Below are positions 26,540-38,430 of a stretch of 40,008 bases of DNA, piece by piece. The notes below the pieces were generated by a model that did not search any database, was not told where the DNA came from, and was given only the letters and a program-made list of their open reading frames with translations. Positions within the stretch are counted from its first letter, which is position 1, and every line of letters starts with the position of its first letter. The translations under genes and the position numbers were made by a program. Source of the DNA: Gemmatimonadota bacterium (GTDB lineage Bacteria > Gemmatimonadota > Gemmatimonadetes > Gemmatimonadales > GWC2-71-9); contig QHUJ01000145.1 in the NCBI GenBank assembly GCA_003221895.1, forward strand, positions 1 through 40,008. The letters run 5' to 3'.

Positions 26540-26612
26540 GGGGGCGTAGCTCAGTTGGGAGAGCGCGTGAATGGCATTCACGAGGTCAGGGGTTCGATCC
26601 CCCTCGCCTCCA
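26540..26612 (+). tRNA. tRNA-Ala (anticodon GGC)
   Basis: Full cloverleaf: acceptor GGGGGCG pairs with CGCCTCC (one G-U), D-arm AGCTCAGTTGGGAGAGC, anticodon stem CGTGA/TCACG with loop ATGGCAT (GGC), T-arm AGGGG TTCGATC CCCCT, discriminator A. CCA is not encoded. Reads codon GCC. Confidence 0.97.
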
Positions 26613-26678
26613 TGTCGTGAGGCGGGAACGCCTGGTCTAAGTCGTTATGGAACGGTTAGATTTGGGCGTCGGACAAGC

Positions 26679-26751
26679 GCGGGAATAGCTCAGTTGGTAG
26701 AGCACAACCTTGCCAAGGTTGGGGTCGCGGGTTCGAGTCCCGTTTCCCGCT
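26679..26751 (+). tRNA. tRNA-Gly (anticodon GCC)
   Basis: Acceptor GCGGGAA pairs with TTCCCGC; anticodon loop TTGCCAA gives GCC; T-arm GCGGG TTCGAGT CCCGT; discriminator T, usual for bacterial tRNA-Gly. CCA is not encoded. Reads GGC and GGU. Confidence 0.97.
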
Positions 26752-26780
26752 CTCCCAGAAGGAATAGCAGAGCACAGCGA

Positions 26781-26854
26781 CGCGGGGTGGAGCAGTCTGG
26801 TAGCTCGCCGGGCTCATAACCCGGAGGTCGTGGGTTCAAATCCCACCCCCGCTA
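26781..26854 (+). tRNA. Initiator tRNA-fMet (anticodon CAT)
   Basis: The anticodon stem CCGGG/CCCGG carries the three consecutive G-C pairs of initiator tRNAs, with loop CTCATAA. Acceptor CGCGGGG faces CCCCGCT, leaving the first position C1 opposite T72 unpaired, as required for formylation and initiation (many bacteria have C1-A72). T-arm GTGGG TTCAAAT CCCAC; discriminator A; no encoded CCA. Confidence 0.96.
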
Positions 26855-26862
26855 CTACGAAC

Positions 26863-26935
26863 GCGGAACGTGGAATGCGGAACGCGGAACTGGCTGGTCC
26901 TGGTTCACTTCTGCGTTCCAACTTCCGCGTTTCGC
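26863..26935. repeat. Heptamer-repeat hairpin, copy B
   Basis: The left arm 26863-26890 is GCGGAAC, GTGGAAT, GCGGAAC, GCGGAAC. The right arm 26908-26935 is CTTCTGC, GTTCCAA, CTTCCGC, GTTTCGC. Same architecture and almost the same 7-mer as the copy at 22760; it is wedged between tRNA-fMet and tRNA-Val. Confidence 0.8.
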
Positions 26936-26939
26936 GTTT

Positions 26940-27013
26940 GGGCGGTTAGCTCAGTTGGTTAGAGCGCCACGTTGACATCGTGGAGGTCACTAGTTCGAGT
27001 CTAGTACCGCCCA
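26940..27013 (+). tRNA. tRNA-Val (anticodon GAC)
   Basis: Acceptor GGGCGGT pairs with ACCGCCC; anticodon loop TTGACAT gives GAC; T-arm ACTAG TTCGAGT CTAGT; discriminator A; CCA is not encoded. Confidence 0.97.
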
Positions 27014-27017
27014 TTGC

Positions 27018-27091
27018 GCGCCCATAGCTCAACTGGATAGAGCGCTTGACTACGGATCAAGAGGCTGGGAGTTCGAGTCTTCCTGGGCGCA
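27018..27091 (+). tRNA. tRNA-Arg (anticodon ACG)
   Basis: Acceptor GCGCCCA pairs with TGGGCGC; anticodon loop CTACGGA gives ACG, expected to be edited to ICG by TadA and to read CGU/CGC/CGA; T-arm GGGAG TTCGAGT CTTCC with one G-U; discriminator A. Only 4 nt separate it from tRNA-Val. Confidence 0.97.
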
Positions 27092-27104
27092 TTCCACAAC
27101 ACGG

Positions 27105-27179
27105 CGGGGCGTAGCGCAGTCCGGTTAGCGCGCCTGGTTCGGGACCAGGAGGTCGGTGGTTCAAATCCACTCGCCCCGA
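27105..27179 (+). tRNA. tRNA-Pro (anticodon CGG)
   Basis: Acceptor CGGGGCG pairs with CGCCCCG; anticodon stem CCTGG/CCAGG with loop TTCGGGA gives CGG; T-arm GGTGG TTCAAAT CCACT; discriminator A; CCA is not encoded. Reads CCG. Confidence 0.96.
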
Positions 27180-27191
27180 CTACAGAATGAT

Positions 27192-27261
27192 CAATGTCCA
27201 ATGTCCAATGACCAATGACCAATGATCATTGGACACTGATCATTGGACATTGGACATTGAT
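27192..27261. repeat. Heptamer-repeat hairpin, copy C (different 7-mer)
   Basis: The left half is five 7-mers (CAATGTC twice, CAATGAC twice, CAATGAT; 27192-27226). The right half is five inverse 7-mers (CATTGGA, CACTGAT, CATTGGA twice, CATTGAT; 27227-27261), directly adjoining with almost no loop. Period and architecture match copies A and B but the unit sequence is AT-rich and unrelated. It lies between tRNA-Pro and tRNA-Arg. Confidence 0.85.
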
Positions 27262-27271
27262 TCTTTAGCAG

Positions 27272-27345
27272 GCGCCAGTAGCTCAGCTGGATAGAGCGTC
27301 GGCCTCCGGAGCCGAAGGTCCCGCGTTCGAATCGCGGCTGGCGCA
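27272..27345 (+). tRNA. tRNA-Arg (anticodon CCG)
   Basis: Acceptor GCGCCAG pairs with CTGGCGC; anticodon stem TCGGC/GCCGA with loop CTCCGGA gives CCG; T-arm CCGCG TTCGAAT CGCGG; discriminator A; no encoded CCA. Reads CGG. Last tRNA of the cluster. Confidence 0.97.
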
Positions 27346-27367: not shown

Positions 27368-28186
27368 TCAACGCCCCGGGTACGCGCCGAGCACGCGTAG
27401 CACGGGAGCGAAGCGGCGCAGCTCGTTCAGCGCGTCGTCCGATTGCTCCCGGACGTCGCCGATCACATCGAGATAAAAGAGGTACTCCCAGGGGCGGCCC
27501 GGAATGGGCCGCGACTCGATCTTGCTGAGATTGAGGCCGCGCTCGGCAAACACGGTCAGCGCGCGATGCAGTGAGCCGGGCGTGTTCGGCAGGGTGAACA
27601 CGAGTGAGATTTTTGTCGCACCGTCGGTTCGAGCGGGCTCGCGCGCGATCACGAGGAAGCGCGTGTAGTTCTCGACATGATCCTCCAATCCTTCCGCCAG
27701 CACCTCTCCACCATACAACTCCGCGGCCAGCGCCGACGCGATCGCGGCATCCGCATTCGCGTGACCCTCGCCCGCGATGAGATTGCGCACGCTCCCCGCG
27801 GTATCGTACGACGGCACGGCGACGAGGTTGGGATGCGTCGCGAAGAACCGGCGGCACTGCGCCAGGGCGACGGGATGCGACGCCACCCGGCGCACCTCTG
27901 GTAGCTCGGTACCCGGCCGCGCGATCAGGCAGTGATGGATCCACACCTGCGTCTCGCCTACAACATGCAGTTGATGCGCGCTCAAGAGGTCGTAATTCTC
28001 GTGGACCGAGCCCGCGAGCGTGTTTTCGATCGGAACGATGCCGCGATGCGCTGCGCCTGATGCAACCGCCTGGAACAGCTCTTCGAACGTGGCGCACGGC
28101 ACGAGACGCAGCGATGGACCATGCGTCTCGAGCGCGGCCGTATGGCTGAAAGAGCCCGCCTCTCCCTGAATCGCTATAGCCGTCAT
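27368..28186 (-). CDS. pheA: Prephenate dehydratase
   Basis: 272 aa, monofunctional: converts prephenate to phenylpyruvate in phenylalanine synthesis. The periplasmic-binding-protein-like catalytic domain (1-180) starts [19 protein letters not shown] and carries [20 protein letters not shown] and the essential Thr-Arg-Phe (ENYTRFLVI). A C-terminal ACT domain (about 190-265, [20 protein letters not shown] then the ESRP motif in [19 protein letters not shown]) is the usual Phe feedback site. No chorismate mutase domain. The ATG at 28186 overlaps the ilvD stop as ATGA. Placement as the last gene of a branched-chain amino acid operon is unusual and puts Phe synthesis under the leader at 37.6 kb unless an internal promoter exists. 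Confidence 0.95.
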
Positions 28187-29865
28187 AGCGCCTGATCCGT
28201 CACGGCACCCTGGCTGCTGCTCGACACGAGGCGCGCGTATTTCGCGAGCACACCGGAGGTGTAGCGCGGGGCCGGCGCCTGCCACGCGGCGCGCCGCGCC
28301 GCGAGCTCGCCCTCGGCAACGTTGACGCGCAGCTCGCGGTGCGGGGCGTCGATCGTGATCGCATCACCTTCGCGTACCAGCGCGAGTGGGCCGCCGACCG
28401 CCGCCTCCGGTGCCACATGCCCCACCACGAGGCCGTGGGTGCCGCCGGAAAACCGTCCGTCGGTGATCAACCCGACGGAGTCACCCAGACCGGCGCCGAT
28501 GAGCGCCGCCGTCGGCGCCAGCATTTCACGCATCCCTGGTCCACCCTTGGGACCTTCATAGCGAATCACGATGACGTCGCCCGCGTGAATCTCGCCCGCC
28601 AGAATGGCGCCGAGACACGCTTCCTCCGAATCGAAGACGCGGGCGGGACCGGTGATTTCATGAGACCCGTGCCCGCTCACCTTGGCGACGGCGCCGTCGG
28701 GGGCGAGGTTGCCGCGCAGGATGACGATATGCCCCGACGGTGCGAGCGGTCGATCCCATGGATGGATCACGTCCTGATCGGGCGACGGGCGTGTGGATAC
28801 GTCTGCGAGCACGTCCGCGACTGTACGGCCCTCGATGGTTCGCGCGTCGCCGTGCAGCACACCGTTCGCAAGCAGGATGCTCATGACTTGTGGAATGCCA
28901 CCCGCGCGATGCAGGTCCGTCGTGACGTAGCGACCCGAGGGTTTGAGATCGCACAACACCGGCACGTGCTTGCGAATGGTTTCGAAATCATCGATCGCCA
29001 GCGGCACACCTGCCGCGCGAGCAATCGCGAGCAGATGCAGCACCGCGTTGGTGGATCCACCGATCGCCATCACGACGGCGATGGCGTTGTCGAATGCCTG
29101 GCGTGTGAGAATCTGGCGCGGCAGGCGCCGCGCGCGTACCGCGTCGAACAACACCGTGGCAGCGCGGGCAGCGCTGTCCGCCGTCTCCTGATCCTCGGCC
29201 GCCATGGTCGAGGAGCCCGGCAGGCTCATGCCCATCGCCTCGATGGCCGCAGACATCGTGTTGGCGGTGAACATCCCGCCGCACGAACCGGCACCAGGAC
29301 AGGCGCGGCGCTCGATCTCGAGCAGCTCGCTCTGCGGCATCCGTCCCGCGCCGGCCGCGCCCACCGCTTCGAACACGCTGACAACCGTGAGATCGCGCCC
29401 TCCGAAATGGCCTGGCTTGATCGTCCCGCCGTAGACGAAAATCGCGGGGATATCGAGGCGGGCGATGGCGATCAGCGCGCCCGGCATGTTCTTGTCGCAG
29501 CCGCCGATCGCGAGCAGGCCATCCATGCGTTGCGCGCCGCACGCCGTCTCGATCGAATCGGCGATCACCTCGCGGGACACCAGGGAGTAGCGCATCCCTT
29601 CGGTACCCATCGAAATGCCATCGCTGACCGTGATCGTCCCGAAGGTTTGCGGCATCGCGCCGGCGCCGCGCAGCGCCTGTTCGGCGCGCCGTGCCAGGCG
29701 GTCGAGGGCGGCGTTACACGGCGTGATGGTACTGTGAGCGCTGGCGATGCCGACGATCGGCTTCGCGAAGTCGGCGTCGCCGAACCCCACGGCGCGCAAC
29801 ATCGCGCGGTTCGGCGCGCGCTCGAGTCCCTGCGTGATCGCGCGGCTGCGGAAGTTGTCGCTCAA
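28183..29865 (-). CDS. ilvD: Dihydroxy-acid dehydratase
   Basis: 560 aa Fe-S dehydratase that forms 2-ketoisovalerate and 2-keto-3-methylvalerate. The cluster Cys are visible: Cys50 (TITPCNAAL), Cys123 (GGCDKNMPG) and Cys195 ([15 protein letters not shown]). The catalytic C-terminal half has SDGRFSGG-type [20 protein letters not shown]. It starts with TTG whose last bases overlap the leuB stop (TTGA), so initiation should depend on translation of leuB. Full length. Confidence 0.97.
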
Positions 29866-30947
29866 GACAGCCCCTCGAGCGCTTCGGCGAGCACCAGATC
29901 CACGATGCGGGTACCCATCTCGGTGGTGCCGATGCTCACTTCACCGGGACGCGCGAGATCCTGCGTGCGCGCGCCAGCGTAGAGCGCTGCCGCGATCGCG
30001 TCGTCGACGGCATCGGCCGCGTCGGGGAGGTTGAGCCCCTGCCGCAGGAGCATCGCCGCGGTGGCAATGGCGCCGATCGGATTCGCCACGCCGCGCCCTG
30101 CAAGCGGAGGCGCAGAGCCGTGGACCGGCTCGAACAAACCGGGTCCGGAGCCGAGCGAGGCCGATGGCAGCAAGCCGAGCGAGCCGGCGAGGACCGCCGC
30201 TTCGTCGCTGAGAATGTCGCCGAACATGTTTTCGGTCAGCACCACGTCGAGCGATGCCGGATCAGTAACCAGTCGCATGGCGGCCGTATCGACGTAGCAG
30301 TGCTCGAGCCGCACGTCGGGGTAATCGCCCGCGAGCTGCGTGACGGTTTCGCGCCACAGCTGCGAGACCTCGAGCACATTCGCCTTGTCTACGGACGTGA
30401 CGAGCCCCCTCCTGCCTCGAGCGGCCTCGAACGCCACGCGTGCGACGCGCTGGATCTCGGGCGCCGTGTACGTCAGCGTGTTGATCGCGCGCATCTCTTT
30501 GCGCCCGCGCGGCTCACCGTAGTAGAGACCACCGGTCAGCTCGCGCACGACCAGCAGATCGACGCCCTGCAGACGGTCGGCTTTCAGCGGCGAGCAGTTG
30601 CTCAGCGCGGGGTGGACGGCGACTGGCCGCAGATTCGCAAACACCCCCAGCAGCTTGCGCAGCGCCAGCAAGCCCGTTTCCGGACGCAGCGCGCGGGGCG
30701 CCGTGTCCAGTCTGGGATCACCCACGGCGCCAAGCAGCACCGCGTCGCTTTGAATGACGACGTCGCGCGTCGCCGGTGGCAGCGGATCGTTGGCCGCGGC
30801 GACGCCAGCTGCGCCGACCGGCAGCTCCGCGAACTCGAACCGGATCGCGAAGCGCTCACCCACCGCTTCGAGCACGCGCACCGCCTGGGCGATCACCTCA
30901 GGCCCGATGCCGTCGCCCGGCAGTACGGCAACGGAGAATGTCTTCAC
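29862..30947 (-). CDS. leuB: 3-isopropylmalate dehydrogenase
   Basis: 361 aa NAD-dependent enzyme of leucine synthesis. [20 protein letters not shown] start, substrate-binding [24 protein letters not shown], the [12 protein letters not shown] loop, [15 protein letters not shown], catalytic Asp region [20 protein letters not shown], and the NAD-binding [20 protein letters not shown]. The start is GTG, overlapping the leuD stop as GTGA. Confidence 0.97.
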
Positions 30948-31561
30948 GGCCTCACCCCCTGACCCCCTCTCCCTGCGGGAGAGGGGGAACCCATACCATG
31001 GGTCTGTTCGTAAGCCGCGATGCTCGCTTCCTCGAGCAGCGTGCGGCCGATTTCGTCCAGGCCGCGCAGCAACAGCTGGCGGCCGTAAGGATCGGCGCTG
31101 AACGCGACAGAAACGCCGCTGTCGTCCGACACCAGCTGTGTCTCCAGATCCACCACCAGCTCGTATGAGCCGCTCGCGGCATTGCGAATCAGCACCTCAA
31201 CGTCGGACGCCGGCAGGGATACGGGCAGCACGCCGTTGCGATAGCAGTTCGCCAGGAAAATGTCTGCGAACGACGGCGCGATGATCGCGCGGAACCCGTA
31301 CTGCGCGAGCGCCCACACCGCGTGCTCGCGCGAGGACCCGCAGCCGAAGTTCGGGCCGGTGACGAGAATCGTCGCGCCCTGTGCCGCGGGCCGGTTGAGC
31401 TCGAAATCGGGATTGGCGCGCCAGTCATAGAACAGGCTGGATCCAAAGCCCACGCGCTCGACGCCTTTCAGGAATTGCTTCGGGATGATCTGATCGGTGT
31501 CGACGTTGGCGCGCGGCAGCGCGACGACCTTCCCCCGATGGCGCACGAAGGGTGTCACCAT
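30944..31561 (-). CDS. leuD: 3-isopropylmalate dehydratase small subunit, with repeat-derived C-terminus
   Basis: 205 aa. Swivel domain of isopropylmalate isomerase; partners LeuC. Recognisable: [80 protein letters not shown]. The family normally ends shortly after AIAAYE (here [11 protein letters not shown]). The last residues [15 protein letters not shown] are encoded by an intergenic-type hairpin repeat (30949-30991), so the tail appears to be a read-in from an inserted repeat. The ATG at 31561 lies 7 bases inside leuC; its TGA overlaps the leuB GTG. Confidence 0.94.
30949..30991. repeat. Dispersed-type hairpin repeat inside the leuD 3' end
   Basis: CCCCCTCTCCC (30963-30973), TGC, GGGAGAGGGGG (30977-30987) is an 11-bp perfect inverted repeat preceded by CCTCACCCCCTGA. 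This resembles the CCTCACCCC...CCTCTCCC/GGGAGAGG hairpin repeats scattered between genes in many GC-rich bacteria. Here it is translated as the LeuD tail and ends 2 nt before the leuB start. Confidence 0.7.
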
Positions 31562-32949
31562 CCGCGCACGTCCACGAGGCGGCCCTCGATCGCGGCCGCT
31601 GCCGCCATCACGGGGCTCATCAGATGAGTGCGTCCGCCCCGCCCCTGACGGCCTTCGAAATTGCGGTTCGACGTCGCCGCACAGCGCTCCCCGGCGCCCA
31701 GGACATCGGCATTCATGCCGAGGCACATCGAGCAGCCGGCGTTGCGCCACTCGAAGCCCGCGTCGCGGAAGACGCGATCCAACCCTTCTTGCTCCGCTTG
31801 CGCCTTCACCCGCTGCGAGCCAGGCACGACCATCGCGCGCACGCGCGTCGAGACGTGCTTGCCACGAACGACATTGGCCGCCGCGCGCAGGTCTTCGATA
31901 CGGGCATTTGTACACGATCCGACGAAGACGCGATCGATGGGAATGCCTTCGAGCGGCGTCCCGGGCTTGAGGCCCATGTATTCGAGCGCGCGCGTCGCTG
32001 CCTCGCGCTCGTTTTCGGTTGGGAGTTTCGCAGGGTCGGGAACCCGGCCCGTGATATCCGCGACCATTCCGGGGGTCGTTCCCCAGGTGACCTGTGGCCC
32101 GATTCTCGACGCGTCGAGGATTACGTGCGTATCGTACGTCACGCCGGGATCCGAGCGAAACGTGCGCCAGCGCTCGACCGCGTTGCGCCAGGCCTCGCCC
32201 GCCGGGGCGCGGGGACGGCCCTTCAGATAGGCGAACGTCACGTCGTCGGGCGCGATCACGCCGGCCCGCGCTCCCGCTTCGATCGACATGTTGCACACGG
32301 TCATGCGCTCTTCCATCGAGAGCGCGCGGATCGCGTCGCCCGTGTACTCGATCACGTGTCCGGTCGCGCCCGCCGTTCCGATCTTCCCGATCAACGCGAG
32401 AATCAGGTCCTTTGCCGTCACGCCCGGCGCACGGCTGCCGGTGATCCGCGCCTCGAGATTGCGGGGCTTGGAGAGCACGAGGCACTGCGTCGCCAGCACG
32501 TGCTCGACCTCGCTCGTGCCGATGCCGAGCGCGAACGCGCCGAACGCGCCGTGCGTCGACGTGTGCGAGTCGCCGCACACGATCACCGTGCCGGGCTGGG
32601 TGGCGCCGAGCTCGGGGCCGATGACGTGGACGATCCCCTGCCCCGGCGACGTGAGACCGAACAGCTCGATGCCGAAATCCCGCGCGTTCGTGTCGAGCGC
32701 ATCCACTTGCCGCGCGGACACCGGGTCGGCGATGGGGACCGAGCGGTCGCTCGTCGGAACGTTGTGATCCACGGTCGCCAGCGTGCGTTCGGGCCGGCGG
32801 ACCTTGCGTCCCTCACGGCGCAGCCCCGCGAACGCCTGCGGCGATGTCACCTCGTGGACCAGGTGCAGATCGACGTAGAGCAGCGCCACGCCGTCCGCGA
32901 GCTCCTGGACGACGTGCGCGCTCCAGATCCGATCGAACAGCGTCTGCAT
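31555..32949 (-). CDS. leuC: 3-isopropylmalate dehydratase large subunit
   Basis: 464 aa aconitase-family subunit carrying the 4Fe-4S cluster; with LeuD isomerises 2- to 3-isopropylmalate. Cluster ligands Cys346 ([11 protein letters not shown]), Cys406 and Cys409 (CSMCLGMN) are present, as are [25 protein letters not shown] and the N-terminal [12 protein letters not shown]. Start at the ATG at 32949, sharing a base with the ilvC stop (TGATG); the GTG one codon earlier is an alternative. The 3' end overlaps leuD by 7 nt. Confidence 0.97.
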
Positions 32950-34031
32950 CACGCGCGCGCCGGCTCCCGCTCAGACGGTTGTGCGGGTTTTGGTCTGGTG
33001 CGACCCCCCCCCGCCTCCGACTGCGCCTTGCCTTCCTCGGTCCACGGCATCATGGCCCGCAGGCGCGCGCCGACCTGCTCGATCGGATGATCCTTGGCCG
33101 CGCGCCGAAGCTCGTTGAACCGGGGAGCACCCGCCCGGCATTCCGCGATCCACTCCTTGGCAAATGTGCCGTTGCGGATGTCAGCGAGCAGGCGCCGCAT
33201 CTCCTCGCGCACCGCCGGGCTGATCACCCGGGAGCCCCGCGTCAAATCGCCGTACTCGGCAGTATTGCTGATCGAATGACGCATGAACCCGAGGCCGCCG
33301 CGGTAGATCAGATCGACGATCAGCTTCAGCTCGTGGAGACACTCGAAGTACGCCATCTCCGGCGCATACCCGGCCTCGGTCAATGTCTCGAACCCGGCCT
33401 GAATCAACGCCGTGACGCCGCCGCACAGCACCGCCTGCTCGCCGAACAGATCCGTTTCGGTCTCTTCCGCGAAGGTCGTCGCAATCACGCCGGCGCGCGA
33501 GCAGCCAATTCCCGTGCCGTAGGCGAGCGCGTTGGCCAGCGCCTTGCCGCTCGCGTCTTGATGCACGGCGACGAGTCCAGGAACGCCACGGCCCGCCTGG
33601 TACTCGCTGCGGACGAGATGCCCTGGAGACTTCGGCGCGATCATCGAGACGTCGACGGCGGGTGGCGGCACGATTTCGCCGAAGTGGATGTTGAAGCCGT
33701 GGGCGAACATCAATGTCTTGCCCGCGCCGAGTGCGGGAGCGACGGCGGCGTCGTAGACCGCGCGCTGCTCCTGATCGGGCACGAGCATCATGATCACGTC
33801 GCCCGCCTTCGCGGCCTCGGCCACCGGCCGCACCTCGAGACCATCGGAGGCGGCCTGTTGCCACGAGGGGCCGTCCGGCCGCAACCCCACGATCACGCGG
33901 GCGCCGCTGTCGCGCAGGTTCTGCGCGTGGGCGTGGCCCTGACTCCCGTAGCCGATGATGGCGAAGACGCGGTCGCGCAGCCGCGCGCGGTCCGTGTCCG
34001 CCTCGTAGTACACGCGCACCGATGAGCTCAT
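32949..34031 (-). CDS. ilvC: Ketol-acid reductoisomerase, in frame with the upstream ACT domain
   Basis: 360 aa from the internal ATG at 34031, which has a perfect GGAGG 5 nt upstream. NADPH-binding Rossmann domain ([28 protein letters not shown]), [11 protein letters not shown], then the all-helical knotted domain with Mg ligands ([37 protein letters not shown]) and [14 protein letters not shown]. Class I (short) enzyme. The family usually ends soon after MMPW; here a tail [20 protein letters not shown] follows, part of it encoded by a run of nine G. There is no stop codon between the upstream ACT sequence and this gene, so a 446-aa IlvN-IlvC fusion (32949-34289) is possible as well as independent initiation. 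Confidence 0.95.
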
Positions 34032-34289
34032 GATGCCTCCGGATGGAGCGATGGATGTGGCGGTCGCCTGGCGAACGCCGACCACGTTCTGGATTTGCAG
34101 GACGAGGCTTTCAACCGTCGCGTCGTCCGCGTCGATCTCACACGACATCCGCCAGATCCCCGGCGGACCATTCGAATCGACGGCAAGAGCCCGGATGGGC
34201 AGATTGCGCCGCCGCAACACGCCGCAGGCGCGACCGAGCGTGAGCAGGTCGCTGGACAACAGCACGGTCACCGTGCGGGGAAGGTTCAT
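34032..34289 (-). CDS. ilvN: Acetolactate synthase regulatory (ACT) subunit sequence, no stop before ilvC
   Basis: 86 codons from the ATG at 34289 (ATGA overlap with ilvB) to the ilvC ATG, without a stop: the frame runs SIAPSGGI straight into [12 protein letters not shown] of IlvC. A single ACT domain ([72 protein letters not shown]) that matches IlvN/IlvM, the valine-sensing regulatory subunit; the length is like the short IlvM, without the C-terminal domain of typical IlvN (about 160 aa). The ilvC SD (GGAGG) is read here as part of Ser-Gly-Gly. Either an IlvN-IlvC fusion is made, or both a fusion and free IlvC. Confidence 0.85.
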
Positions 34290-35968
34290 ACCGGCGCCGC
34301 CTCGAGCGGCTCGGACAGCGAGCCGCCCGGTACGATCATCGGGAAGACGTTCGCCTCCTGCTCGATCACGAGCTCGACCAGCGCCGGGCCCGGTGCTTCG
34401 TTGGCCCGACGCAGGGCGTCGCTGACCTCGCTGGCCTGTTTGACGCGCCAGCCTGGAATGCCGTAGGCCTCGGCGAGCTTTACGTAGTCCGGACTCCAGA
34501 TCGGCGTGTTGGAATATCGGCCCCCGTGGAAGAACTGCTGCCACTGCCGCACCATGCCGAGGTAGCCGTTGTTGAAAATAGCGAGCTTCACGGTGAGCCC
34601 TTCCTGCACCATCGTGCCGATCTCGGCCATGTTCATCTGGAATCCGCCGTCCCCGGAGAGGGCCCATACCGATTCGCCGGGACGCGCCAGATGGACTCCC
34701 ATGGCCGCGGGCACGGCGAAGCCCATCGCGCCCAGACCACCGGACGTGATGTGCGTGTTTGGTCGCTGGAAGGGATAGCGCTGAGCGATCCACATCTGGT
34801 GTTGTCCTACATCCGAGACGATCGTGCAGCGCCCGCCGGTCACCTCGGCGAGAGTGGAAAGAATCAGGTCGGGCGACAATCCTCGGGCGAACGCTTCTTC
34901 GCCATGGCGCATGAGCGCGGCGATCTCCTGCCGCCAGCGGAGGCACTCCCGCGGCGCTACCTCGGTCAGCAGGCGCGCGATGATCGGGCGCGCGTCGCCC
35001 ACCAGGCCGACGGCGACGGGCACGTTGCGCCCGATCGACACCGGATCGATATCGATGTGGACGATTTTGGCGCGCGGCGCGAACGTGGCCGTGTTGCCCG
35101 TTACGCGATCATCGAACCGCATCCCCACGCCGATGATCAGATCGGCCACCTGGATGGCTTTGTTGACGTGCACTTCGCCGTGCATGCCCGGCATGCCGAG
35201 ATGTAGCTCGTGTGCCTGCGGGAACGCGCTGATGCCAAGCAGCGTCGTGATGACCGGGATGCCCGTGCGCTCGGCGAGCTGGCGAACCTCCGCGTAGGCG
35301 TTGCCCGCGATCACACCGTGTCCAATCATCAGCAGCGGCCGTTCCGCGGCGGCGATCAGTTGCGCGACGTCGCGCAGGGTCGCGGCGTCCGGGAGCTCGG
35401 GAGAGCGCGCGCCCTGCGCACTGCGGCGCGAGGGATGTGGCCGCGTTCGATACTCCGCCTTCTGATTCTGGACATCCTTGGGCACGTCGACGAGCACGGG
35501 ACCGGGGCGTCCCTCCATCGCGATGGCCATGGCGTCCCGTACGTCGTCCGCCAGGTCCTCCACATCGCGCACCAGCACGTTGTGCTTGGTCACCGGCATC
35601 GTCACTCCGACGACGTCGGTTTCCTGGAATGCGTCACGTCCCAGCATCGGCCGTCCGACCTGCCCCGTAATCGCCAGAACCGGAGAGCCGTCCATGTGCG
35701 CGGTGGCGAGCCCCGTCACGAGGTTGGTCGCGCCCGGTCCGGATGTCGCGACGCACACACCCACGCGATGGGAGGCCCGCGCATATCCGTCCGCCGCGTG
35801 GGCCGCCGCCTGCTCGTGGCGCACGAGAATGTGACGCAGACCTTGCTGGCCGTGGAGCGCATCGTAGAACGGCATGATGGCGCCGCCTGGATAGCCAAAC
35901 ATCACCTCGACGCCGGCATCGACCAGCGTGCGTCGCAGGATCTGCGCGCCCGTCAAGAGCTCAGCCAT
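34286..35968 (-). CDS. ilvB: Acetolactate synthase catalytic subunit
   Basis: 560 aa TPP/FAD enzyme that condenses pyruvate to acetolactate (or with 2-ketobutyrate to acetohydroxybutyrate). N-terminal PYR domain with [15 protein letters not shown] and catalytic Glu52 ([16 protein letters not shown]), central FAD-type domain, C-terminal PP domain with the Mg/TPP motif [15 protein letters not shown]...[13 protein letters not shown]. The start has GGAG about 9 nt upstream, 3 nt after the leuA stop; the stop overlaps the ilvN start (ATGA). Full length. Confidence 0.97.
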
Positions 35969-35971
35969 AGG

Positions 35972-37525
35972 CTACACTCCCCAGTAGTAGCTGCTGCTCA
36001 GGGCCGCGGTCTCGAGACCATCCGCGTGATCGATCTTGTTCAGCGCGTGGACCAGCGCGCGCGCTCCCGCTTCGACGATGTCGGTCGATGCCCCATGCCC
36101 GCTGAGCGACTTGCCGTCGATGCGCACCTGCAGTAGCACGCGTCCCAGACTATCGCGCCCGGGCGTTACCGACTGCACCGACAGATCGATGACTTCGATC
36201 GTGCGACCGGCGGCTTCGCCGACCGCCGCGAACGCCGCAGCGATCGGTCCGTTGCCGCTTGCCGTCGCAGTGCGCTCCCGGAATCCAGGACCGGCCATCC
36301 GCACCTCGGCGGACGCGGTCTCGGTGCCGCAGCTCACGCGCAGATAGGTGAGAGTGTAAACCTCGGGCGCGCGGTGGAACCCTTCGTGCAGCAGTGTGAG
36401 CAGATCTTCGTCGAGGATCTGGCGCTTGCGGTCGGCGAGAGCGGTGAACGCCTGGTACAGCTGCTCGAGGGTGCCGGCGTCGGGCTCATAGCCCAGCTCG
36501 CGGTACCGCCGCTCCAGCGCGTGGCGGCCGGAATGCTTGCCGAGCACGATGCTCGACCCGCCGGCGCCCACTGTTTCGGGCGAGATGATCTCGTAGGTGA
36601 GCACGTTCTGCAGCATGCCGTGCTGATGGATGCCCGCCTCGTGCGCGAACGCATTGCGCCCGACGATCGCCTTGTTGGGCTGCGGGAACACGCCGGTCTC
36701 GTGCGACAGCAGGCGGCTGGTGCGGACGATTTCCCGCGCATTCACGCCGCAGCGGAACGCGAGGACCTGTGGCCGGGTGCGCCCCGCCATCACGATTTCC
36801 TCGAGCGCCGCATTGCCGGCCCGTTCGCCGATGCCGTTGATCGTGCACTCGACCTGACCAGCACCGGCCTCGATCGCGGCGAGTGAATTGGCGACCGCGA
36901 GCCCGAGGTCGTCGTGGCAATGCGCGCTGAGCACCACCGTTTCGCTTTCCGGCACTCGCTCGCGGACTGTCCGGAACAGCGCCGCGTATTCCGCCGGCGT
37001 CGTGTAGCCGACGGTGTCGGGCAGGTTAATCGTGGTGGCGCCCTCGGCGACCGCGAGGGCGACGACTTGGCACAGGAAGTCGAGGTCACTGCGCGTCGCG
37101 TCCTCCGCCGAGAACTCGACGTCGGCGGTGTGAACGCGGGCGCGGCGCACCGCGCTGCGGACGCGCTCCAGGCACGTCGCGCGGTCGATGCGCAGCTTTG
37201 CCTCGAGGTGCAGGTCGGAAGTGGCGATGACGATGTGGATGCGCTTACGCTGCGCCGACTGCAGCGCTTCGGCGGCGAGGTCGATGTCGCGGTCGTGGCA
37301 GCGCGCCAGCGCGGCGATGACGGGGCGGCGGACGGCCTCACCGACTTGCTGCACCGCGAGCAGATCCCCTGGCGATGCGGCGGGGAAGCCGGCTTCGATG
37401 ACGTCCACCCCGAGCGCGTCGAGCTGACGGGCCAGTCGCAGCTTGGCTTCCGGAGACATCGCATTGCCGGGCGCCTGCTCGCCGTCGCGCAGCGTGGTAT
37501 CGAAGATGATCACATCCGGGGCCAT
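35972..37525 (-). CDS. leuA: 2-isopropylmalate synthase
   Basis: 517 aa first enzyme of leucine synthesis (2-ketoisovalerate plus acetyl-CoA). TIM-barrel with FDTTLRDGEQAPGNAMSP (catalytic Arg12-Asp13), metal ligands His202 and His204 (SAHCHDDLGLAVANS), NGIGERAGNAALEEIVMA, subdomains with HQHGMLQN and LGKHSGRHAL, then the C-terminal LeuA allosteric domain (about 390-517, ASGNGPIAAAF, GHGASTDIVEAGARALVHAL). Strong SD GGAGGAG 6-7 nt before the ATG, directly after the attenuator terminator. First structural gene of the operon. Confidence 0.97.
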   Translation of the reverse strand: MAPDVIIFDTTLRDGEQAPGNAMSPEAKLRLARQLDALGVDVIEAGFPAASPGDLLAVQQVGEAVRRPVIAALARCHDRDIDLAAEALQSAQRKRIHIVIATSDLHLEAKLRIDRATCLERVRSAVRRARVHTADVEFSAEDATRSDLDFLCQVVALAVAEGATTINLPDTVGYTTPAEYAALFRTVRERVPESETVVLSAHCHDDLGLAVANSLAAIEAGAGQVECTINGIGERAGNAALEEIVMAGRTRPQVLAFRCGVNAREIVRTSRLLSHETGVFPQPNKAIVGRNAFAHEAGIHQHGMLQNVLTYEIISPETVGAGGSSIVLGKHSGRHALERRYRELGYEPDAGTLEQLYQAFTALADRKRQILDEDLLTLLHEGFHRAPEVYTLTYLRVSCGTETASAEVRMAGPGFRERTATASGNGPIAAAFAAVGEAAGRTIEVIDLSVQSVTPGRDSLGRVLLQVRIDGKSLSGHGASTDIVEAGARALVHALNKIDHADGLETAALSSSYYWGV

Positions 37526-37549
37526 GGCTTTCTCCTCCGCCTCGCGGTT

Positions 37550-37584
37550 AAAAAAAAAGACCGCGAACCTGATTGGGTTCGCGG
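37550..37584 (-). terminator. Attenuator terminator upstream of leuA
   Basis: On the minus strand CCGCGAACC (37584-37576) and GGTTCGCGG (37569-37561) form a 9-bp perfect stem with a 6-nt loop. It is followed by a U-rich tail, including nine consecutive T at 37558-37550. It lies 24 nt before the leuA start and 32 nt after the leader-peptide stop. The 3' arm can alternatively pair with ACCGCG-type sequence just past the U tract (37543-37548 with 37560-37565). Confidence 0.9.
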
Positions 37585-37588
37585 CGCC

Positions 37589-37683
37589 GGTTCTGCTCGT
37601 CCTGCTGTCGAAGCTGCTACATCGTGTTCTCCGCGCGCGCCATGAACCCTCCCCCGAGCTGACTAAGGCTCAGGAGCAGAACC
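37589..37683 (-). promoter_or_regulatory. Leader RNA pairing elements of the leu attenuator
   Basis: The leucine-codon run contains GGTTCTGCTC (37683-37674). This is perfectly complementary over 10 bases to GAGCAGAACC (37598-37589), located after the leader stop and just ahead of the terminator stem. A ribosome stalled on the Leu codons would block this pairing, as in classical leader attenuation. Leader bases GGTT and CGCGG around 37634-37647 could also pair with the 5' arm of the terminator. Complementarity is seen; the switching is inferred. Confidence 0.65.
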
Positions 37684-37715
37684 AGGCACAGGAACAGCAG
37701 CGCGAACGAACTCAT
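37617..37715 (-). CDS. leuL: Leucine-rich leader peptide of the leu/ilv operon
   Basis: 32-codon ORF beginning MSSFALLFLCLVLLLSLSQL and ending ENTM before TAG. It contains 9 Leu (three in a row at 13-15), 3 Phe and 1 Val. It lies between a promoter-like element and an intrinsic terminator immediately upstream of leuA, the arrangement of transcription attenuation controlled by charged tRNA-Leu. Translation of the control codons would set RNA folding; the peptide itself is not expected to have a function. The ATG has no good SD, and the predicted transcription start is only a few bases upstream. The alternative, a small membrane peptide, is less likely given the terminator and RNA complementarity. 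Confidence 0.8.
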   Translation of the reverse strand: MSSFALLFLCLVLLLSLSQLGGGFMARAENTM

Positions 37716-37724
37716 GTTGATCCG

Positions 37725-37754
37725 GTAATCTCCGTGTTGGGCGGCGCCTGTCAA
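37725..37754 (-). promoter_or_regulatory. Promoter of the leu/ilv operon
   Basis: On the minus strand a consensus TTGACA (37754-37749) is followed after 18 nt by GATTAC (37730-37725, 3/6 match). Transcription would then start close to the leader ATG at 37715. The -35 is convincing, the -10 weak. Confidence 0.5.
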
Positions 37755-37773: not shown

Positions 37774-38430
37774 TCAGAAGGCGATTGCGAAGCCGACGCG
37801 ACCCAGGGACTGCTGGATCGGTGCCGAAATCGAGCCACTGCCGTCATCGGTCGTGCGCGAGACGCTCTGGAACTCGTAGTCTCCAGTGACGCGGAGCCGG
37901 CCGTGGAGGGCGTCGACCGTGAGCCCCAGGCCCAGGCGCACGGCTCCCAACGCAGAGATCGAGCCGCCCCCGGAGAACTTGGGTCCGAACATCAGGCCGC
38001 CGTCGAGCGCCATCCGCACCCCGGGACCGAGGAGATGCGACATCTGCGCGCCGGCCGTCACCGCCCCCATCGACTGCGCCTCGAACTCCGGGTCCGCCTT
38101 GCGATTCATGAACCCGAGCTCGGCGCTGAAGGGGCCGGAGATGTAGTACCGCAGCTGCACGTCCACTTCGCTCGCGTCGAAGTCGGTCGTCGCCGTACCC
38201 CCTTCGGGTTTGTACTTCACTTTCGACAGCCAGACGTCGGCGGAGAATTTCTTCCAGACTACAGACGCCTTCGCTCCCACGCCGCCGCCGCGGTAATGGA
38301 GATCGGACGTCGTCTCGCGATAGTCGCCGAACGCGACCTGGGGGCCGATGGAGAAATGCTGGGCTGCAAGGGGGTATGTCGGCACGAGGGCAAGCGCGGC
38401 TGCTGCGACCGCTATCGGGCCGGCTCTCAT
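37774..38430 (-). CDS. Outer-membrane beta-barrel protein
   Basis: 218 aa with signal peptide MRAGPIAVAAAALALVPTYP ending LAAQ. The mature protein shows alternating strands (HFSIGPQVAFGDYRETTSDL, GVGAKASVVWKKFSADVWLS, VDVQLRYYISGPFSAELGFM, RMALDGGLMFGPKFSGG, LRVTGDYEFQSVSR) and ends GRVGFAIAF with the terminal Phe of BAM substrates. Function unknown. The ATG at 38430 overlaps the stop of the TPR gene (ATGA), so it is the last gene of a three-gene unit. Confidence 0.75.
   Translation of the reverse strand: MRAGPIAVAAAALALVPTYPLAAQHFSIGPQVAFGDYRETTSDLHYRGGGVGAKASVVWKKFSADVWLSKVKYKPEGGTATTDFDASEVDVQLRYYISGPFSAELGFMNRKADPEFEAQSMGAVTAGAQMSHLLGPGVRMALDGGLMFGPKFSGGGSISALGAVRLGLGLTVDALHGRLRVTGDYEFQSVSRTTDDGSGSISAPIQQSLGRVGFAIAF

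Follow-up and report, generated by a model that had tools for sequence, protein, structure and literature searches.

The logic of ribosome-mediated attenuation is textbook knowledge. Leader-peptide systems were reportedly proposed for some Bacteroidetes/Chlorobi and Thermotogales, too, in the 2004 survey of Vitreschak et al., and their spread to another phylum is therefore not shocking. According to a survey from 2010, such systems had until then been demonstrated in Proteobacteria and Actinobacteria alone; the survey itself added examples from Firmicutes [PMC2965389], and the ilv-leu attenuator of Staphylococcus aureus came after that survey [PMC5794164].

The locus described here lies in a window of 40,008 nt (the whole stretch of DNA that was analysed) from a soil bacterium of the Gemmatimonadota. 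Like the leuL attenuator of Salmonella and Escherichia coli (RF00512), it has a Leu-codon leader, alternative 1:2, 2:3 and 3:4 pairings and an intrinsic terminator in front of leuA, and both use a rare Leu codon, CUA in the Salmonella leader [PMC1183508] and CTT here. It differs from leuL in that the ORF is near-leaderless, the antiterminator strand lies inside the ORF, and ilv genes and pheA belong to the same operon; the two appear to function alike, but there is no sequence or model match and the locus is not a member of RF00512 by model. The leuA LEU element and the ilvB leader peptides of Actinobacteria also place a leader rich in Leu, Ile or Val before leuA or ilvB, but the LEU element is a pseudoknot without a terminator [PMC1262725], whereas terminator and antiterminator are both present here. 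In S. aureus one peptide, there Leu/Ile-rich, and a terminator likewise control the whole ilv-leu operon, but this system is from a Firmicute, lies before ilvD, has another proposed antiterminator and is additionally controlled by CodY [PMC5794164]. The leaderless poly-Cys attenuators of mycobacteria, cited in PMC13236596, are leader ORFs lacking a 5′ UTR whose codons report amino-acid supply, as proposed here; they differ in responding to cysteine, and cys leaders have been reported without obvious terminators [PMC1262725]. Searches of Rfam at the gathering threshold and at E 10 returned nothing relevant, with no match to the RF00512 Leu leader or a T-box, and in the open-access literature there was no paper linking Gemmatimonadetes or Gemmatimonadota with attenuation. 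On this basis the attenuator is apparently new for its phylum, in agreement with the sequence-only reading, whose author model was aware of none.

The leader upstream of leuA (Table 1) combines an ORF rich in the product amino acid, an upstream promoter, an intrinsic terminator, a mutually exclusive antiterminator and suitably placed control codons, features by which an attenuator is recognised. These parts, their spacing, their conservation and, on predicted folding, their mutual exclusivity are evident from the sequence and from comparison between genomes. It is highly likely that a ribosome-mediated transcription attenuator controls the leuA-ilvB-ilvNC-leuC-leuD-leuB-ilvD-pheA operon, and the leader is very probably a functional leucine attenuator of the classical type.

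Table 1. Features of the attenuator and the operon downstream, with positions in the window.
Feature	Position	Strand	Basis or remark
-35 hexamer TTGACA	37749..37754	-	exact consensus
-10-like hexamer GAGATT	37727..37732	-	16-nt spacing, 3/6 match, weak in source species
Leader peptide ORF MSSFALLFLCLVLLLSLSQLGGGFMARAENTM*	37617..37715 (ATG 37715, TAG 37617)	-	32 codons, 9 Leu
Control codons CTG-CTC-CTG	37671..37679	-	last codon 24 nt before segment 2
Segment 1, 5′ arm of 1:2 hairpin, CTCCTGAGC	37668..37676	-	folding and covariation
3′ arm of 1:2 hairpin, GCTCGGGGG	37651..37659	-	folding and covariation
Segment 2, antiterminator 5′ strand, GGGTTCATGGCGC	37637..37649	-	comparison and folding
GAGCAGAACC, 10-base complement of 37674-37683	37589..37598	-	real in window
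Segment 3, GCGCCGCGAACCC	37575..37587	-	partner is segment 2 (antiterminator) or segment 4 (terminator)
Segment 4, terminator 3′ arm, GGTTCGCGGT	37560..37569	-	terminator scan and covariation
T9 tract of intrinsic terminator	37550..37558	-	read from sequence
leuA Shine-Dalgarno GGAGGAG	37532..37538	-	read from sequence
leuA, 2-isopropylmalate synthase	35972..37525	-	NF002086, 697.8 bits (cutoff 532)
ilvB, acetolactate synthase large subunit	34286..35968	-	TIGR00118
ilvN (ACT only)-ilvC in-frame fusion ORF, 446 aa	32949..34289	-	ACT weak (E 0.002); KARI_N, KARI_C strong
leuC	31555..32952	-	TIGR00170
leuD	30944..31558	-	TIGR00171
leuB	29862..30947	-	TIGR00169
ilvD	28183..29865	-	TIGR00110
pheA, prephenate dehydratase, last gene	27368..28186	-	PDT, ACT

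Gene names were checked with NCBIfam and Pfam. Nine genes had been counted from the sequence alone; there are eight ORFs, because ilvN is reduced to its ACT part and continues in frame into ilvC. The same stop-free run of an ACT-only ilvN into ilvC is found in 6/6 examined members of the genus (the window and loci L032 and L112-L115), with linkers of varying length, and other genera keep the two genes separate. A GGAGG precedes an internal ATG of the KARI part, so that the fusion and a free KARI could both be made. The order leuA-ilvB-ilvN-ilvC-leuC-leuD-leuB is kept in the family, ilvD is on the same strand in the window's genus and in genus g13, and the ilvD-pheA pair occurs only in the window's genus. 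Neighbouring genes of the operon overlap or abut and are therefore likely to form one transcript, and this layout suggests that pheA may also come under the control of leucine. Seven tRNA genes on the plus strand (26540-27345) converge on the pheA end.

When 295 genomes of the class were searched with LeuA, 85 had a close LeuA, and DNA of the leuA region was taken from 80 of them; named Gemmatimonadetes contigs were added to this set of relatives. A recurring order was seen before leuA, namely a -35 hexamer, 16-18 nt, a -10 hexamer, a Leu-rich ORF, a GC-rich segment, a spacer, a GC hairpin and a T run. In an automated pass, 51 leaders before leuA had the terminator; these are the clear cases and not an unbiased rate, as the input list was picked after reading the upstream regions. 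Genomes in which leuA lies inside another operon (e.g. leuC-leuD-leuA) have no leader element.

The consensus -35 hexamer named in the sequence-only reading is exact (37754-37749), and at least 5/6 bases of it are found at the matching place in 50/51 leaders. The GAGATT -10 hexamer is conserved across five aligned genomes of the window's genus; other genera have TAACCT, TAGCCT and similar forms, and a simple promoter scan lists no promoter here because GAGATT is weak. By consensus, a -35/-10 promoter lies 5′ of the leader in 50/51 leaders of the class, the start sites being predicted. The leader ATG is 11 nt past the -10 hexamer in the window and 11-12 nt across its genus, so that the 5′ UTR is very short and a Shine-Dalgarno sequence would not fit. 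An in-frame start codon for the leader lies only 4-10 nt past the -10 hexamer in 11/50 leaders and is ATG in 7 of them; these transcripts would carry no or almost no 5′ UTR; the others of the 50 have longer 5′ UTRs by their predicted starts.

The 32-codon ORF with nine Leu codons, including CTG-CTC-CTG, is exactly as first read on the minus strand. Among 200 dinucleotide shuffles for the window's leader, no leader-like ORF equalled its Leu count (p 0.005), and a Leu-rich ORF was found at p≤0.05 against such shuffles in 48/51 leaders, the best leader-like ORF of each having 5-15 Leu and the shuffles being given the same selection. When 50 leaders are lined up by segment 2, Leu occurs in 66-70% at codons -27/-24 (70% at -24, where the window carries CTG exactly) and in only 2% inside segment 2 (positions 0 to +6). 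Choosing ORFs for Leu could lift the level of Leu but not its position. Within the window's genus the leader ORFs have 30-32 codons and differ only by entire codons; the Leu block is mostly retained, with synonymous substitutions. CTT makes up 14.7% of leader Leu codons (30/204), against 1.1% in the leuA genes of the family (12/1135; p 1e-16).

Folding bears out the sequence-only reading's expectation of mutually exclusive structures: the 2:3 and 3:4 pairings exclude each other, and 2:3 is predicted to depend on a stalled ribosome. In the free fold the 1:2 hairpin extends into segment 2. To mimic a stalled ribosome, all RNA as far as 15 nt past the start of its A-site codon was removed, and the remainder, ending with segment 3, was folded. 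For the window, the predicted probability of 2:3 is 0.00 without a ribosome and 0.99 with one stalled on the Leu codons. The class mean is 0.41 without a ribosome, rises to about 0.9 when the stall lies between -40 and -18, and is about 0.1 once the stalled codon reaches segment 2. The finished leader without a ribosome forms the terminator at 0.94 (class mean), and the free leader of the window does so at 0.72. For the finished RNA of the window the terminator is still favoured at equilibrium despite a stalled ribosome (P 0.98); since equilibrium often reverts to the terminator with segment 4 present, the switch must be kinetic.

From this arrangement we infer ribosome stalling, kinetic capture of segment 3 and a response to leucine. 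RNA polymerase would start at the promoter (37754-37727), and a ribosome would load on the leader ORF almost at once. With ample Leu-tRNA it would cross the Leu run to the stop codon and mask part of segment 2, and with no ribosome segment 2 would be hidden by the 1:2 hairpin; in either case 3:4 would form and transcription would stop at T9. With scarce Leu-tRNA, the ribosome would stall at CTG-CTC-CTG and open 1:2, allowing segment 2 to capture segment 3 ahead of the synthesis of segment 4; 2:3 would then replace the terminator and the operon would be transcribed. Alternative structures alone do not name the sensor, and, as the sequence-only reading noted, the Leu run can pair with other segments too. 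Other candidates would be a T-box, a riboswitch, a protein or a translational pseudoknot of the actinobacterial LEU type. Such a sensor is nonetheless quite unlikely, as there is no Rfam match at any useful score, the Leu codons stand at the spacing needed by a stalled ribosome, and a terminator is present, unlike in the actinobacterial LEU element [PMC1262725].

The antiterminator, at a fixed spacing, was missed in the sequence-only reading and completes the mechanism. Segment 2 pairs with segment 3 in 51/51 leaders, starting 48-74 nt before the terminator, and the sequences vary by clade with complementarity retained. Much of the window's family has the pair GGGTCxGCGGCGC/GCGCCGCGGACCC; the corresponding pairs are GGATCGCGGCG/CGCCGCGGATCC in L035 and L124, GAGAGGGC or GAGAAGGC with GCCCTCTC or GCCTTCTC in families f5, f7 and f8, GGGCCTGCC/GGCGGCGGGCCC in L149 and GCTGGGGGCG/CGCCCCCGGT in L170. 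The complementarity that had been reported instead, between 37683-37674 and 37598-37589, is an exact 10-base match in the window (GGTTCTGCTC/GAGCAGAACC) but not the conserved antiterminator. It is very improbable as the working one, because it would sequester the Leu codons, shares no bases with the terminator arm and is only partial in other species of the genus.

Shuffles of 170 nt per genome picked scattered pairing in the window and gave way to compact windows, partner swaps and controls with upstream blocks; against shuffles, 2:3 reached p≤0.01 in just 10/51 single genomes, which often fail because the DNA is GC-rich. The segment 2 zone outdoes at least 95% of equal-sized upstream blocks in 42/50 genomes (-25.6 versus -16.2 kcal/mol). 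Own 2:3 partners gave -27.0 and -22.9, against -19.3 and -13.5 for partners swapped across clades, a cost of 8-9 kcal/mol. None of 10,000 within-clade permutations reached the observed 2:3 mean, a figure inflated by relatedness. By alignment columns within the family, helices 3:4 and 1:2 covary beyond 500/500 shuffles. Helix 2:3 is kept in 86% of cells within the family, but its column covariation there is not above shuffles (88/500); two partners constrain segment 3, and this part of the alignment is imperfect.

The terminator stem and nine U before the leuA Shine-Dalgarno sequence had also been read correctly; the stem (37585-37560) has 10 pairs counting a closing G-U, followed by C and then nine T. 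A scan of 1.5 kb on both strands shows no other terminator-like site, and shuffles yield 0.9, so that the terminator by itself is not beyond chance, but its conservation before leuA is. The leader fold, too, surpasses shuffles only moderately (z -2.1), and so the argument relies on comparison. This comparison also bears on whether the hairpin merely ends the upstream gene (37774-38430), with a separate, unregulated leuA promoter. That ORF does end at 37774, 20 nt ahead of the -35 hexamer, but the promoter and leader sit between it and the hairpin, T9 is only 24 nt from the leuA ATG (37525), and across genomes the element tracks leuA and not the upstream gene, as its upstream neighbours are unrelated (a tRNA gene in L112 and L115, different genes at other loci), all of which makes this reading highly unlikely.

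The leuL-type attenuator proposed from the sequence alone stood or fell with conservation in relatives, and it is supported: ORF, Leu codons and terminator are all kept upstream of leuA in the family and the class, also in genomes fetched later from a search of the phylum. Promoter motif, Leu leader, 2:3 and terminator were found in eight such new leaders, from 5/5 new genomes of the family (L255, L256, L258, L259 and L260; L257 repeats L034) and three members of the order (L266, L268 and L272). No such leader was found before leuA in five genomes of the sister class or at four further f2 loci, and 55 control leuA loci of other phyla gave one convincing and one possible case (L050 and L111). 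These two, from Calditerrivibrio and a member of the Planctomycetota respectively, have a Leu-rich short ORF and a terminator before leuA and may be independent attenuators. An extra small ORF lies between attenuator and leuA in L172, L190, L177 and L191, mostly from the second family of the order.

A covariance model, R1, recovered 20 leaders at leuA within the family and barely reached other families because their sequences differ; its weak matches before hisG, a cysteine synthase gene and an ATP-grasp gene led to His and Cys leaders. In 27/30 loci of the class (L222-L251), hisG is preceded by a short ORF that has four or more His, mostly as runs, and a T run often lies downstream of this ORF. 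In the window's own genome (L252, G000:C167) the leader before hisG is MYTPVHHRHHHGHSVHGG*, with its ATG 7 nt past a TATATC -10 hexamer and a strong GC hairpin downstream that has only a poor T run. The layout of the Leu attenuator thus appears to be widespread in the class and to be used for histidine as well. Short Cys-containing leaders with terminators were seen in L217, L218 and L212, before the cysteine synthase gene (CSC) and the ATP-grasp gene (CYCCRMMM), and are possible cysteine attenuators. Chorismate-binding genes (trpE/pabB type) of the window's own genome showed no leader by eye. That the Leu ORF instead encodes a functional small Leu-rich membrane peptide, its level merely tuned by the terminator, can be set aside as most improbable: within the genus the peptide does resemble a single hydrophobic helix, but it has no Pfam match, only Leu content and position relative to segment 2 persist across clades, the C-terminal half of the ORF encodes the antiterminator strand, and hisG leaders of the same layout have His runs instead.

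With the leader read as an attenuator, the known range of leader-peptide attenuation would gain a phylum. The balance tips slightly towards attenuation with little or no 5′ UTR being general in this class, for leu, his and probably cys, and towards the leader in the window's genus governing all branched-chain and phenylalanine synthesis. About 60 examples, in which sequence changes and layout stays fixed, may be useful for building an Rfam family and for annotating small ORFs that have been missed, as well as for asking how translation proceeds with almost no 5′ UTR.
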